Part shown: positions 6,413 to 33,651 of the stretch, piece after piece
How the letters are laid out: the number at the start of each line of letters is the position of its first letter
Position numbering within the stretch: the stretch's first letter is position 1
Origin: Candidatus Omnitrophota bacterium
GTDB lineage: Bacteria; Omnitrophota; JACPQZ01
Assembly (NCBI GenBank): GCA_016190205.1
Contig: JACPQZ010000042.1
Span: 1 to 34,804, forward strand
Reading direction: 5' to 3'
DNA length: 34,804 bases
Made by a program: the position numbers and the translations under genes
Notes under the pieces: model-generated
The model's database searches: none
What the model was told of the DNA's origin: nothing
What the model saw: the letters and a program-made list of their open reading frames with translations, nothing else

Positions 6413-7675
6413 ATGATAAAATCCCCTCTCGGAATGGCTGGTATCTTGCCCTTTCGCGCAACCCGCTATAACCTGCGCAAAATAAAGGTATTAGAGAAAG
6501 TCGTTGCCCCGCCATACGACTGTATCAGCCCTCTGGAACAGAAGGCCCTTTACCGGAAAAGCCCTTATAACTGCGTGCGGCTAATTTTAAGGAAGGGGTC
6601 CTTTACGCGTTCTGCGGGCCCTTTGCTTTACAAAGCGGCGGCCAGGGATCTTAAGCGGTGGAAGTCGGGCGGCGTTCTGGTGAAGGATGCCGAGCCGTCT
6701 TGCTACCTTTATGAGCAGCGGTACACGGCGGGCGGCCATCATGTTAGGAGAAAGGGTCTCTTCGTTTTAATAGCCCTTTCGTCGGGCAAGCGGAAGATAG
6801 TGCCGCACGAACGCACCCTTTCTGCTCCCAAGAAGGACCGGTTTGAGCTCACCAAGGCGACGCGTACGAATCTCTCGGCCATTTTTGGCCTCTACCGTGA
6901 TCCGGGCAGAAGGATAGAAAGGCTCACGCGTGACGCGCGGGGGGGCCGTCCCCTTTTTACAGTTCGGGGGCAGGATGGGGTGCTCAATAGCCTTTGGCAG
7001 GTGCGGGATCCCAAAAAGCTAAGCGCCTTGACCCGCGCGCTGGGCACCAAGCGAATTTGGATTGCAGACGGGCACCACCGTTTTGAGACGGCCGTTGAGT
7101 ATAACCACTGGGCCCGGTCGAGGGGGTTAAAGCTCAACACGGGATATATCCTGGCGTGCCTGGTGGCGATGGAAGATCCCGGTTTAAGGATTTTTGCCAT
7201 ACATCGGCTCATACGAATCCGGGACAGGGATGCCAAGAGTGACTTTCTCAGAGGGTTAAGACAGAATTTTAATATCCGGTCCGTCGCCAGCCTTGTAAAG
7301 CTCCTGCCCCTCCTGGAGAAAAGGAGCGCCTTCCATAATATAGGGATGACCGACGGGAGGGGTTTTTACCTGGTAACGGCCCGGCGCCGCCATCCGGGCG
7401 ATTTGGATGTGGAGTTCCTGGACCGCAAGATCATGCGGCCCCTCATGGAGCGGGCCCATCTCAAAAAGGGAACGGATATCCAGTTTGAGCACGAACCTGC
7501 GAAGGCGGTCAGGCGCGTGGCACGAGGCGAGTTTGACTACGGCGTTTTTCTCGCCCCTACGACCTTGAAGGACTTGAGGCGAAGGACGGGCCAGGGCAAG
7601 CGCCTCCCTGAAAAGTCGACATACTTTTACCCCAAGATTTTGTCGGGGCTCGTTTTTAATGAGTTAGAAAATTGA
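6413..7675 (+). CDS. DUF1015 family protein
   Basis: PFRATRYNLRKIKVLEKVVAPPYDCISPLEQKALYRKSPYNCVRLIL and IADGHHRFETAVEY are characteristic of DUF1015. Confidence 0.88.
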   Translation: MIKSPLGMAGILPFRATRYNLRKIKVLEKVVAPPYDCISPLEQKALYRKSPYNCVRLILRKGSFTRSAGPLLYKAAARDLKRWKSGGVLVKDAEPSCYLYEQRYTAGGHHVRRKGLFVLIALSSGKRKIVPHERTLSAPKKDRFELTKATRTNLSAIFGLYRDPGRRIERLTRDARGGRPLFTVRGQDGVLNSLWQVRDPKKLSALTRALGTKRIWIADGHHRFETAVEYNHWARSRGLKLNTGYILACLVAMEDPGLRIFAIHRLIRIRDRDAKSDFLRGLRQNFNIRSVASLVKLLPLLEKRSAFHNIGMTDGRGFYLVTARRRHPGDLDVEFLDRKIMRPLMERAHLKKGTDIQFEHEPAKAVRRVARGEFDYGVFLAPTTLKDLRRRTGQGKRLPEKSTYFYPKILSGLVFNELEN

Positions 7676-7678
7676 GGT

Positions 7679-7752
7679 TTCGTATCTCGTATCTCGTGAA
7701 GCGTATCTCGCAACGGTTTGCGATTCACGATTCACGATTCACGAACGACGAA
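7679..7752 (+). repeat. Heptad-phased imperfect inverted repeat / hairpin (solo element)
   Basis: CGTATCT CGTATCT CGTGAAG CGTATCT CGCAACG GTTTGCG ATTCACG ATTCACG ATTCACG AACGACG; 35-nt arms 7679-7713 and 7718-7752 match 25/35 in inverted orientation around a CGCAA-CGGT-TTGCG tip. Confidence 0.9.
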
Positions 7753-7773
7753 CCAGCACGCTAGGAGGAAGTC

Positions 7774-8772
7774 ATGGCTGATTTCGGTCCGGAAGACATC
7801 ATAAGAGGAGGTCGGTTCGGAAACATTCCTCCCGAAAAGATGAGGCAGCTCCTGATCAATGGGGGAGGTGTCCTCATGGCCCTGGTGCTTCTCTTGACCA
7901 GCTTTTATATGGTCAATCCCGACGAGGTGGGGGTCATCCAGCGATTCGGGAGGTATGTGCGCACCACTACTCCGGGGCCCCACTTTAAGCTTCCTTTATG
8001 GATTGAAAAGGTCACGAACGTTCCGGTCAAGCATGAGTTCACGGAGCAATTCGGGTTCCGGACGCTCCGGTCCGGCGTACGAACCGAGTACGTCCGGGGC
8101 GATTTCAGCAACGAAAGCCTGATGCTCACAGGGGATCTCAATAACGCGGTTGTGGAGTGGGCCGTACACTACCGGATCAGCGACGCCCGGGAGTTCATCT
8201 TCGACAACCGGAATCCCCGCGAGACGATCCGTGATATGTCTGAGGTGGCCATGAGACAAATCGTCGGCGACCGGAGCGTGAACGAGGTCATCACGACCGG
8301 AAGACAGGAGCTGGAGGGGGAGTCACAGAAAAAGCTGCAGGAAATCATGGATTCCTATCACATCGGCGTGGAGATCCGCAGGGTTGAGCTTCAGGACGTC
8401 AACCCCCCCGATGCGGTGGCTGCTTCCTTTGCCGAGGTGAACCAGGCCAAACAGGAGAGGGAGAAGCTCATCAACCAGGCCTGGGAGGATTACAATAAGG
8501 TGATCCCGAAGGCGAAGGGTGAGGCCGAGAAGGTGATCCGGGAGGCGGAAGGCTATCTCGCGCGGCGGGTGAACGAGGCGGAAGGCGATGCGAATCGCTT
8601 TCTCGCGACCTGGGAGGAGTATAAAAACGCTAAGGAGGTAACGAGGAAGAGGCTTTATTTGGAGACCCTGACCGACCTCTTGCCCCGGCTCAAGACCAAG
8701 ATTGTGGTAGACGAAGATCTTCAAGGGATTCTGCCTCTTTTGGATCTCTCAAAGGAAATGGGGGTGGAGTGA
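7774..8772 (+). CDS. hflK: SPFH/band 7 protein, HflK-like
   Basis: N-terminal TM then MVNPDEVGVIQRFGRYVRTTTPGPHFKLPLWIEKV; followed by an HflC-like gene; AGGAGG upstream. Confidence 0.85.
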   Translation: MADFGPEDIIRGGRFGNIPPEKMRQLLINGGGVLMALVLLLTSFYMVNPDEVGVIQRFGRYVRTTTPGPHFKLPLWIEKVTNVPVKHEFTEQFGFRTLRSGVRTEYVRGDFSNESLMLTGDLNNAVVEWAVHYRISDAREFIFDNRNPRETIRDMSEVAMRQIVGDRSVNEVITTGRQELEGESQKKLQEIMDSYHIGVEIRRVELQDVNPPDAVAASFAEVNQAKQEREKLINQAWEDYNKVIPKAKGEAEKVIREAEGYLARRVNEAEGDANRFLATWEEYKNAKEVTRKRLYLETLTDLLPRLKTKIVVDEDLQGILPLLDLSKEMGVE

Positions 8773-25129: not shown

Positions 25130-25396
25130 ATGTACAGGACAGAAATGTATCTGCGGCAAGATCAGCTTGACGCCTTGCAGAACCTAGCCTTTTTAAGGAC
25201 GAAAAAAGGAAGGAAGCGGGTGGCGATGTCGGAGATCGTCCGAGAGGCGATCGACCTTTGGCTGAAACAACAGCCCAGCGCGACAAAGGCTTACAAGCTG
25301 ATCGAGCGCGCACTCGGCACAGCTATAGCGAGCGAGTCGGCCCTTAAAAAGGACTGGCTGCGAAAAGAAGAGGATGAGGCTTGGCGCGATTTATAA
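25130..25396 (+). CDS. Ribbon-helix-helix antitoxin
   Basis: MYRTEMYLRQDQLDALQNLAFLRTKKGRKRVAMSEIVREAIDLWL; overlaps the downstream PemK-like gene. Confidence 0.85.
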   Translation: MYRTEMYLRQDQLDALQNLAFLRTKKGRKRVAMSEIVREAIDLWLKQQPSATKAYKLIERALGTAIASESALKKDWLRKEEDEAWRDL

Positions 25397-25713
25397 AGGG
25401 GGATGTAGTTGTTCTGCCTTTCCCTTTTTCAGATCTTACACAGGCAAAAAGGCGTCCCGCCCTGGTCGTAGCAGATGCTGGGGGAGAGGATGTCATCCTC
25501 TGCCAGATCACGAGCCAACCGGTAAAAGATCGGGACGCGCTAGGGATCGATCACGAGGATTTTGAAACCGGAACGCTCAAGCTCAAGAGTAACATCCGGC
25601 CGAATCGCATCTTCACTGCCGATCAAAGCATCATTCTTTACAAGGCTGGCAGTCTGAAGGCCAAAAAAATCGGCGAAGTCATCGAGAAGATCATCCAAAT
25701 CTTAGAAAGGTAA
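25381..25713 (+). CDS. MazF/PemK-like toxin
   Basis: RFIKGDVVVLPFPFSDLTQAKRRPALVVADAGGEDVILCQITSQ...IRPNRIFTADQSIILYKAGSL; TTG start overlaps the antitoxin. Confidence 0.92.
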   Translation: MARFIKGDVVVLPFPFSDLTQAKRRPALVVADAGGEDVILCQITSQPVKDRDALGIDHEDFETGTLKLKSNIRPNRIFTADQSIILYKAGSLKAKKIGEVIEKIIQILER

Positions 25714-31162: not shown

Positions 31163-32078
31163 GATAGGTTCCCGTGCGAGTCTGCTCGCCCGGACCCAGG
31201 CGCTCTGGGTTCAAGCAGCGCTTAAAAGAAATTTTCCACGCCTTAAGTTTGAGCTGGTTTTAGTCCGTACGGAAGGCGACAGGAATCTTGCCCCCTTCGA
31301 TCAGGTGGGGACGAAGGGGATGTTTACCCGCGCGATCGATGAGAAGCTGGTAAGGGGCGCGGTGGATCTGGCCGTGCACAGCCTCAAGGATCTGCCTGCG
31401 GAGCTTCCCGAGGGGGTGGTCCTGGCCTGTGTTCCCAGGCGGGAGGATCCGCGCGACGCGCTGGTAAGTCTCGCCGGGGAAGTGGACTCGCTTCGAGGCT
31501 TGGCCGCGGGGTCCAGGATCGGGACCTCGAGCCCGAGGAGGGCGGCACAGATCCGGGCCTTAAGACCTGATTGCGCCGTCACCGATGTGCGCGGTAATCT
31601 GGATACCCGGCTTAAAAAACTTGAGGCGCGCGAATTTGAATGCCTCGTCGTGGCCCTGGCAGGGCTCATCCGGCTTAAAGTGCGCGATAGGCATGTGGTC
31701 CCCATTCCGGCAGATGACATGCTGCCCTGCCCGGGGCAGGGGGCTTTGGGGTTAACGGCGCGCGAGGGTGATTTAGAAGCCCGGGAGCTTGCCGGCAGCA
31801 TTGAAGATGAGCGCTCACGGCTGGCGGCCGACGCGGAGCGTTCATTTCTAAAGGCCCTTGGGGGGAGCTGCCGCCTGCCCTGCGGGGCGCTGGCCGAGGT
31901 AAGCAAGGAGCGAATAAAAATGTCCGGAATTCTTCTCTCTACGGACGGTACGAAGAGCTATAAAGCCTGTGTGGAATCTCAAGCGGCACAGGCAGAAGAG
32001 ATCGGGGCGCGGCTTAAGGAAGAGCTCCTTAACTTGGGAGCGGGAGATGTGTTGCCACGTGAGACGAAGGCGGTTTAA
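31101..32078 (+). CDS. hemC: Hydroxymethylbilane synthase (porphobilinogen deaminase)
   Basis: FKIGSRASLLARTQALWVQAAL, FTRAIDEKLVRGAVDLAVHSLKDLPAELPEGVVLA, SSPRRAAQI, DVRGNLDTRLKKL, ALGGSCRLPCGA. Confidence 0.96.
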   Translation: MARKASGRGLKASPVPRPLFKIGSRASLLARTQALWVQAALKRNFPRLKFELVLVRTEGDRNLAPFDQVGTKGMFTRAIDEKLVRGAVDLAVHSLKDLPAELPEGVVLACVPRREDPRDALVSLAGEVDSLRGLAAGSRIGTSSPRRAAQIRALRPDCAVTDVRGNLDTRLKKLEAREFECLVVALAGLIRLKVRDRHVVPIPADDMLPCPGQGALGLTAREGDLEARELAGSIEDERSRLAADAERSFLKALGGSCRLPCGALAEVSKERIKMSGILLSTDGTKSYKACVESQAAQAEEIGARLKEELLNLGAGDVLPRETKAV

Positions 32079-33600
32079 GAAAGGAAAGGTTTTCCTGGTC
32101 GGGGCAGGCCCCGGCGATCCGGGGCTTATTACGGTAAAGGGCCTTGAGCTTTTGCAAAGGGCGGATGCCGTGGTCTATGACGCCCTTGTGGATACCAGCC
32201 TTTTAGACCACGCCCGGGCGGGGGCGCGGCGCATTTTTATGGGTAAGCGGATGGGCCAGCCCTCCGCCAAACAGGGCGAGATCCACCGCCTGCTCATTCG
32301 CGAAGCGCGCAGGGGCCGCGCGGTCGTGCGGCTTAAGGGCGGGGATCCCTTGCTCTTCGGCCGCGGGGCGGAAGAAGCAAGCGCCCTGCGCCGGGCCCGT
32401 GTGCCTTATGAGATCGTCCCCGGCGTCTCGAGCGCCTGGGCGGTCCCCGCATACGCGGGAATTTCCCTCACAGACAGGCGCTTAAGTTCCAGTGTGATGC
32501 TCACGACGGCCCACGAGGCGTCTTTCAAGAGAAATTTAACCCCAATGCGTTGGAAACGGCTTGCGAGGGGAGCCGATACCCTCGTCATTTTTATGGGCCT
32601 AAGCCGCCTGGCCGACCTGACTCGTCACCTGATGCGGGCCGGTTTAAAGAGCAGCGCGCCTTGCGCATTGCTCTACTGGGGCACCACATCCAGGCAACGG
32701 TCTCTTTTTTCAACCCTTGGACGCGTGGCCCAACTGGCCGAGCGACTGCGTTTTAAGGCTCCCTCGCTTCTCATCGTGGGCCGGGTGGCCCGCCAAAGGC
32801 GTCTGGGGCGGTGGTGGCATCCGCCCGGGCTAAAAGGCAAAAGGATTTTGGTGACGCGGCCCCGCGGTCAGGCCGGTGCGCTCGCGCGGCTATTAAGGGC
32901 GAGGGGGGCGCGCGTCGTTACGGCCGCAACCATCCGCATCGAACCCGCTTCAAGTTACAAGGCGCTGGACCGTGCGATCTACGCGATCAGCCGGTTTGAC
33001 TGGCTCGTTTTTACCAGCGCAAACGGGGTCGAGGCGTTTTTCCGCCGCTGGAAGAAGGTTCGGCCGGGGCAGAGTCTTCCTGCAAAGCTGCGCGTGGCGG
33101 TGATTGGACCCGCGACACGCGCCGCGGCGCGGGGGTACAGACTCAAAGTGCACCTTTCACCCAAGCAGTACGTGGCCGAGGGGCTTTTGCAGGCCTTCCG
33201 CGACAAAAGGTTATCTTTAAAGGGAAAACATGTTCTGCTCCCGCGGGCCCGCGACGCCCGGCCGACAATGGTCCAGGGGCTTCGTCGGATGGGGGCAAAG
33301 GTGGAAGTGGTCGAGGCCTACCACACCGCGGTGGACCCGCGCGCGGCGCGGGCCCTGCGGGCCGTTTCGGCCAACGGGGGAGTGGATCTCGTCACATTCA
33401 CGAGTTCCTCCACGGCGGAGAATTTCGTTCGGATACTGGGGCCCGGAAAGGCGCAGAAAATCGCGCAGAGGGCCGTGACTGCAAGCATCGGCCCCGTGAC
33501 CAGCGAGACCCTGAACCGCTTGGGATTAAACGTGGACATCGAGGCGAATCCCTCGACCGTTCATGGACTTGTTCAGGCAATTGAACGATATTTTAACTAG
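32047..33600 (+). CDS. cobA-hemD: Uroporphyrinogen-III C-methyltransferase / uroporphyrinogen-III synthase fusion
   Basis: VFLVGAGPGDPGLITVKGLELLQRADAVVYDALV, VVRLKGGDPLLFGRGAEEA, VPGVSSAWAVPAYAGI; C-terminal HemD domain KRILVTRPRGQAGALARLLRARGA...DWLVFTSANGVEAFF...TFTSSSTAENF. Confidence 0.95.
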   Translation: MCCHVRRRRFKKGKVFLVGAGPGDPGLITVKGLELLQRADAVVYDALVDTSLLDHARAGARRIFMGKRMGQPSAKQGEIHRLLIREARRGRAVVRLKGGDPLLFGRGAEEASALRRARVPYEIVPGVSSAWAVPAYAGISLTDRRLSSSVMLTTAHEASFKRNLTPMRWKRLARGADTLVIFMGLSRLADLTRHLMRAGLKSSAPCALLYWGTTSRQRSLFSTLGRVAQLAERLRFKAPSLLIVGRVARQRRLGRWWHPPGLKGKRILVTRPRGQAGALARLLRARGARVVTAATIRIEPASSYKALDRAIYAISRFDWLVFTSANGVEAFFRRWKKVRPGQSLPAKLRVAVIGPATRAAARGYRLKVHLSPKQYVAEGLLQAFRDKRLSLKGKHVLLPRARDARPTMVQGLRRMGAKVEVVEAYHTAVDPRAARALRAVSANGGVDLVTFTSSSTAENFVRILGPGKAQKIAQRAVTASIGPVTSETLNRLGLNVDIEANPSTVHGLVQAIERYFN

Positions 33601-33605
33601 TTAGG

Positions 33606-33633
33606 GGTGTGTGGTGAGTGATGTGTGGTGAGG
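33606..33633 (+). repeat. Left heptad repeat arm of the four-helix-bundle element
   Basis: GGTGTGT GGTGAGT GATGTGT GGTGAGG, four 7-mers of form GRTGWGK; 33614-33632 is inverted-complementary to 34022-34040. Confidence 0.88.
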
Positions 33634-33651
33634 TTGGGAGACGAGGGCTTA

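Follow-up and report, generated by a model that had tools for sequence, protein, structure and literature searches.

An inverted period-7 repeat between the DUF1015 and hflK genes of an Omnitrophota bacterium: a likely gene-less member of a mobile-element family linked to PF05635 four-helix-bundle proteins

What is the hairpin of 7-nt units found at positions 7679 to 7752 in the genome of a Candidatus Omnitrophota bacterium: an ordinary intercistronic structure, or one copy of something more widespread? The window (the whole stretch of DNA analyzed here, 34,804 nt) places it between genes assigned by Pfam/NCBIfam to DUF1015 (6413-7675) and hflK (7774-8772), with 3 nt separating the DUF1015 stop codon from the start of the left arm and the right end lying upstream of the hflK ribosome-binding site. 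An earlier note, made from the sequence alone, had claimed this placement, the hairpin with its arm positions, equal 35-nt arms with the core kept in 7-nt register, and a 25/35 match with mismatches biased to the variable triplets. All of this held on recomputation, and the loop can now be specified as 4 nt:

7679..7713, plus strand: left heptad arm, TTCGTATCTCGTATCTCGTGAAGCGTATCTCGCAA, read as TTCGT, ATC, TCGT, ATC, TCGT, GAA, GCGT, ATC, TCGCAA
7714..7717, no strand: loop CGGT, 4 nt, closed by a TCGCAA/TTGCGA palindrome
7718..7752, minus strand: right heptad arm, reverse complement TTCGTCGTTCGTGAATCGTGAATCGTGAATCGCAA, with the minus-strand reading TTCGT, CGT, TCGT, GAA, TCGT, GAA, TCGT, GAA, TCGCAA

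Nine of the ten mismatches between the arms lie in the variable triplets, the remaining one being a T/G difference preceding a CGT core. Across the rest of the window, arms of this geometry scored at most 20/35 (34,530 positions scanned). Only two stretches exceeded 20/28 matches at lag 7, namely, 7709-7761 and 34010-34051, and a scan of the window at lags 2 to 13 and 15 to 20 returned nothing above threshold apart from lag 7 (lag 14 is its harmonic). The RNA fold of the hairpin (-30.5 kcal/mol, z -4.1) was not equaled by any shuffled sequence, the DNA fold gave a z of -4.7, and in the folded form 3x3 internal loops alternate with stacked 4-bp cores.

One reading of this structure is an ordinary regulatory hairpin between DUF1015 and hflK, serving mRNA stability or termination. 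In its favor, the fold is stable and the position just 5' of the hflK ribosome-binding site makes an effect on the transcript possible. Against it, no intrinsic terminator (a GC-rich stem and a trailing T run) was found at the hairpin, the hflK flanks of 28 relatives carried no lag-7 array (0/56), and the left arm proved to be a dispersed repeat. For these three reasons we do not regard the hairpin as an ordinary intercistronic one, and as an account of its origin this reading is virtually ruled out; a side effect of the hairpin on transcript processing may nonetheless exist. Rfam families and a promoter were also sought at the hairpin, and none was found.

The source genome (1.65 Mb, 92.8% complete) contains many copies of the arm. 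A genome-wide search for TCGTNNN runs, as the earlier note had suggested, gave 76+77 exact matches to the pattern TCGTNNNTCGTNNNTCGT, whereas its reversed control gave 3+4. A 25-nt core taken from the left arm was found exactly at 7 places and with at most one mismatch at 14 (reversed control, 0), with the order of the variable triplets conserved among the copies. Three copies (C31, C33, and C75) are closed hairpins in which the right-arm units have been swapped and the loops differ; copies of the hairpin other than the one at 7679-7752 have a loop longer than CGGT. Four further copies of the arm have another layout in common, which includes a GTGAGTG-type inner pair, and two more run on into a TCGGT-type array. 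The earlier note had named as its refutation a sequence that occurs only once in the genome and shows no change; the data point the other way, with dispersed copies, swapped units, and absence beside hflK in relatives. As a separate observation, contigs C9, C10, C12, C24, C33, and C38 of genome G036 start within TCGTNNN arrays, mostly TCGTATC, as though the assembly had broken there.

The hairpin's motif is one of many. In the 0.98 Mb of the source genome covered by the array survey, 434 arrays were detected at lag 7, compared with 3, 17, 3, 12, 7, and 4 at lags 5, 6, 8, 9, 10, and 11, respectively. About half of the surveyed stretches had been picked for TCGT matches, so that the array density for that motif is biased upward, the comparison between lags being much less affected. 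At least a dozen motifs were found, including TCGTGNN, CCAGNNA, GCGTACN, TCGGTNN, AATTCG, TCGCTGG, GGGAAGC, and ACGTCCN, and across many unrelated motifs the array length peaks at 30 to 33 nt, and smaller maxima are seen at 24 and 38 nt. The mode, 31 nt, equals five copies of a 3- to 4-nt core, or four heptads plus three nucleotides. Neighboring arrays with the same motif are convergent (+-) in 77 cases and divergent (-+) in 5, and the pairs are nested like brackets. Islands of arrays are copies of each other, up to 95.7% over 322 nt, with the homology bounded by the outer arrays. Their median distance is 11 nt to gene 3' ends and 54 nt to 5' ends, as estimated from rough gene calls (65 of 200 islands overlap a predicted open reading frame [ORF]). 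Similarity between the arms of a single element (0.559) is essentially that seen between arms of different elements (0.553), so arm pairing is not evidently under selection, a comparison that rests on only seven pairs. A search for a conserved motif outside the arrays yielded only weak preferences, such as a T preceding S-family arrays, the k-mer list being dominated by adjacent arrays; a PADLOC search for defense families gave no match.

Could these be plain tandem heptamers, generated by replication slippage, retained as G-quadruplex or spacing DNA, and immobile? The heptamers of Xanthomonas and Nostoc have indeed been attributed to four G tracts (PMC4692102), and a few arrays in the source genome and in cyanobacteria are long and slippage-like. 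However, motifs free of G runs (CCAGNNA, TCGTGNN, GCGTACN, and AATTCG) have the same 30- to 33-nt length as the G-run families, and slippage would be expected to yield a broad length distribution instead of the peak observed. The 77:5 convergent pairing, the copying of whole units, the conserved triplet order, and the empty sites described below also speak against this explanation, which we consider highly improbable overall and refuted for most arrays.

Near its right end, the window carries a second heptad-armed structure, this one enclosing a gene:

33606..33630, plus strand: left heptad arm, GTGTGTG/GTGAGTG family, starting 5 nt past the stop codon of ORF 31969-33600
33652..34053, plus strand: four-helix-bundle gene (PF05635, 115.9 bits; TIGR02436, 106.6 bits), fold like Xcc0516 (2gsc) and Avd
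34013..34051, minus strand: right heptad arm of the gene-bearing element, also coding for the C-terminal tail of the protein

The element (33601-34053, with GTGAGTG-type arms) sits directly 3' of the ORF 31969-33600 stop codon. The earlier note's claim that the hairpin has the same period and inverted layout as these flanks held, and its view of the hairpin as their ORF-less counterpart is supported by the genome-wide copies. Membership of the protein in PF05635 is clear (115.9 bits versus a curated cutoff of 33.8). Its predicted structure (pLDDT 97) resembles Xcc0516 (2gsc; TM 0.95), BT_0352 (0.88), and Avd (0.80), and the nearest PHROGs family is Avd. The structure entries of both Xcc0516 and BT_0352 contain five chains, and Xcc0516 is a toroidal homopentamer (PMC4990558). 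A structure of an S23/IVP protein has been available since 2006; the function of this protein is listed as unknown (PMC4990558). The possibility that the protein is Avd proper was rejected (21.9 bits versus the Avd model cutoff of 80), the source genome giving no match to the reverse transcriptase family RVT_1. A location within 23S rRNA was likewise tested, and no rRNA was found in the window or at 18 further PF05635 loci (mostly weak-armed or armless). Elsewhere in the window, at 25130-25713, translations alone point to a small gene pair, antitoxin-like and then PemK/MazF-like.

The association between heptad arrays and PF05635 genes extends well beyond this locus. All five PF05635 genes of the source genome were examined, and inverted heptads flank four of them, each with its own motif (GCGTACT, TCGTGCT, CCAGNNA, and GTGAGTG); three of these motifs rank as the most abundant genome-wide. 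In Omnitrophota, PF05635 flanks with lag-7 periodicity numbered 60/67, 62/82, and 24/34 (146/183 in total, with 37 below the array threshold), and only seldom did another lag pass the threshold. In Nostoc, Calothrix, Anabaena, Geminocystis, Pseudanabaena, Stanieria, and Riemerella plasmids, 20 of 28 flanks showed the lag-7 periodicity, mostly inverted. Heptad-armed PF05635 genes span at least three bacterial phyla. Where both arms were present (65 loci), 63 were inverted rather than direct. A few PF05635 genes (at L249 and L232) have heptads in the same orientation on the two sides (AAAAGCT/AAAAGCC and GTCAGAA), very long in L249. In the cyanobacterial plasmids L253, L249, and L256, the four-helix-bundle gene often lies within CRISPR gene clusters, flanked by cas6 and cas4 or by cas10 and cmr3, without heptad arrays in L256. 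A search for a PF05635-type protein in phages and viral contigs returned nothing useful.

Array abundance follows the gene. Ten PF05635-free genomes contained 1 array in 200 kb, versus 23 in 200 kb for ten genomes with three or more PF05635 genes. It had been predicted beforehand that GAAGGTN arrays would be commonest in genome G031, where this is the gene's motif, and 205 were observed there versus 0 in the other genomes searched. A second advance prediction, a TAAGTNN peak in G021 and G040, was only partly met: counts were high where expected (22 and 23), yet highest in G025 (46), with 7 in the PF05635-free G002. No PF05635 gene bearing the TAAGTNN motif was found in either G025 or G002. Arm motif and protein similarity are correlated between genomes (Mantel rho 0.17, p 0.0005; 62 loci in gene-sense orientation, restricted to loci whose two arms agree), an earlier test of 29 loci, which included spurious or missing second arms, having given a p of 0.11. 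The motif is shared by 52% of protein pairs with at least 60% identity, compared with 1.5 to 3% of those below 50%. Common descent of the whole element accounts for part of this correlation, although arms that were not maintained would decay. Many motif families in the source genome, including TCGGT, GGGAAGC, and TCGCTGG, have no resident PF05635 gene; the genes may have been lost, may lie in the missing 7% of the genome, or may not be needed.

Evidence that the elements move came from related plasmids. In Nostoc plasmids, a TCAGGAG-armed gene-bearing element separates two ORFs that in relatives with an empty site have 3 nt between them, and TTCTA flanks the insertion on both sides (target duplication of about 5 to 6 nt); the duplication is clear at this one Nostoc site only. 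Closely related plasmids likewise lack the elements that have GGGAAAA, AGGGTGT, or GGGAACA arms; in the position of the GGGAACA element, a third plasmid carries a GGGAAC-armed unit without a gene. In plasmid pNPM1 of Nostoc N6 (L309:733-914), a 182-nt gene-less unit with TCAGAAT/TCAGGAG arms interrupts a four-helix-bundle gene. From the empty and occupied sites and the interrupted gene, it follows that both gene-bearing and gene-less units insert. The gene-bearing elements examined contain no ORF other than the four-helix-bundle one, and no transposase. No catalytic partner acting in trans was identified in the source genome, where Y1_Tnp (4 genes) and RVT_1 (none) were looked at.

Such units might be miniature elements that owe their mobility to a conventional transposase acting in trans (of the Y1/IS200 type or from another insertion sequence), with the four-helix-bundle gene as a mere passenger. 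The source genome has the four Y1_Tnp genes, the inverted ends and the short target duplication at one Nostoc site resemble those of a transposon, and an enzyme encoded by an insertion sequence would account for the absent catalyst. Against this, in flanks of equal width, only 5/46 flanks of Y1 transposase genes have lag-7 arrays, compared with 45/48 flanks of PF05635 genes. Moreover, the arm motif covaries with the four-helix-bundle protein, cognate motifs are amplified in genomes carrying that protein, and a fixed transposase leaves the motif differences from genome to genome unexplained. We therefore regard this alternative as unlikely.

The best explanation, in our view, is that 7679-7752 belongs, as a gene-less (nonautonomous) copy, to a family of mobile elements with arms recognized by a pentameric four-helix-bundle protein. 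Mobility and linkage to PF05635 are well supported; the reading as a whole is likely, recognition being inferred in the absence of binding data. The period, the inverted layout, the approximately five motif copies, the dispersal, the PF05635 link in several phyla, and insertion as a unit are all demonstrated. The five copies per arm, the multiplicity of motifs, mobility as seen from empty sites, and the cross-phylum PF05635 link are additions to what the earlier note had claimed. In this scheme, a complete element measures about 400 to 450 nt and consists of an array of about five copies (a 3- to 4-nt core at 7-nt spacing), a PF05635 gene, and the same array inverted. Gene-less elements retain only the arms and a short middle, and are dispersed by the hundreds, mostly in intergenic DNA and often a few nucleotides from a stop codon. 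The pentamer ring may bind a single-stranded arm in such a way that each protomer holds one core and the variable triplets act as spacers, by analogy with TRAP on its triplet repeats. Ring-bound arms would then flag the DNA or RNA ends of the element to an inserting enzyme of host or foreign origin, the element itself encoding none.

The one-core-per-protomer step is inferred from the fact that an arm has as many cores (five) as the ring has protomers; three turns of B-DNA would also come to about 31 nt. A less favored possibility is that the element is mobile but owes the 31-nt length of its arm to DNA geometry (three turns, ~31.5 bp), the arm being bound double-stranded and not through five cores held by a pentamer. 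Two helical turns correspond to three heptads (21 bp), and double-strand binding would suit inverted ends. On the other hand, the minor lengths of 24 and 38 nt are whole-heptad steps, and with a 7-bp step consecutive sites face different sides of the duplex; neither point is decisive.

A bolder version of the preferred reading, recognition of the arms by the pentamer, would posit a widespread transposase-free mobile class with five-core, 7-nt-spaced ends read by a five-fold ring of the S23/Avd fold, a lineage-specific core motif, and the Xanthomonas/Nostoc heptamers and 23S S23 intervening sequences as members or remnants; here we lean, narrowly, against. If true, a mobile element would be spreading with a noncatalytic ring protein as its sole gene, and its end sequences would vary by lineage while period and copy number stay constant.

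Several known systems invite comparison. The GGGAATC and GGGGA(C/T)T heptamers of Xanthomonas and Nostoc have a strong four-unit bias, form 70 to 75 convergent pairs per Xanthomonas genome, are about 90% intergenic, and have the closest ORF on one side at a mean distance of 28 nt; they were ascribed to G-quadruplexes and stated not to be generally tied to mobile elements (PMC4692102). The 7-nt unit is shared, and the Xanthomonas species studied also encodes Xcc0516 (PF05635). That study, however, draws no PF05635 link, whereas here many G-poor motifs have equal length and whole units insert. As an explanation of unit number, the G-quadruplex was rejected, the four-G-tract feature not being met by the G-run-free families. 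The TAACTGA repeats of Beggiatoaceae, cyanobacteria, and Bacteroidetes are described as direct repeats with a regulatory role and one inverted pair (PMC4679880), and the cyanobacterial STRR heptamers (Mazel 1990) are reportedly intergenic tandem heptamers, also direct repeats with a regulatory role. Both resemble our arrays in being intergenic tandem heptamers, and some of the host groups also carry PF05635 genes; they differ in that inverted pairs are limited to the one case and a PF05635 link is not known to have been reported.

The 23S rRNA intervening sequences with an S23 ORF (Coxiella and Leptospira) have terminal inverted repeats, with a 28-bp stem in Coxiella, and have been termed a selfish element and suspected of mobility (PMC4990558). 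A PF05635-type ORF between terminal inverted repeats is a feature met here, but those sequences reside within 23S rRNA and are excised by RNase III, whereas the present elements occupy sites between protein-coding genes and are accompanied by abundant gene-less copies. REP/REPIN sequences with RAYT (PMC3116915) likewise combine palindromic, gene-less intergenic copies with a linked single-copy gene; the protein (Y1) and end structure are different, and the Y1 association is not met (5/46 versus 45/48). Avd of diversity-generating retroelements (DGR; 4dwl and 8ube) shares the fold and the five-chain ring and is a nucleic-acid partner protein, but it partners a reverse transcriptase, and the source genome has no RVT_1. 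As in miniature inverted-repeat transposable elements, gene-less dispersed copies with terminal inverted repeats are present; derivation from a transposase-encoding autonomous element is not met, since the gene-bearing elements hold the four-helix-bundle ORF only. No link between heptamers and PF05635 was found in the open-access literature searched (subscription papers and preprints fell mostly outside its scope). The system joins two unexplained items, the S23/IVP protein of unknown function and the bacterial tandem heptamers (hitherto ascribed to quadruplexes or regulation), and offers a testable partner for each. We rate it as new, and probably so in category, since every known kind falls short on one or more of the defining features tested, its parts being known separately as heptamers (PMC4692102 and PMC4679880), S23 sequences (PMC4990558), and Avd.
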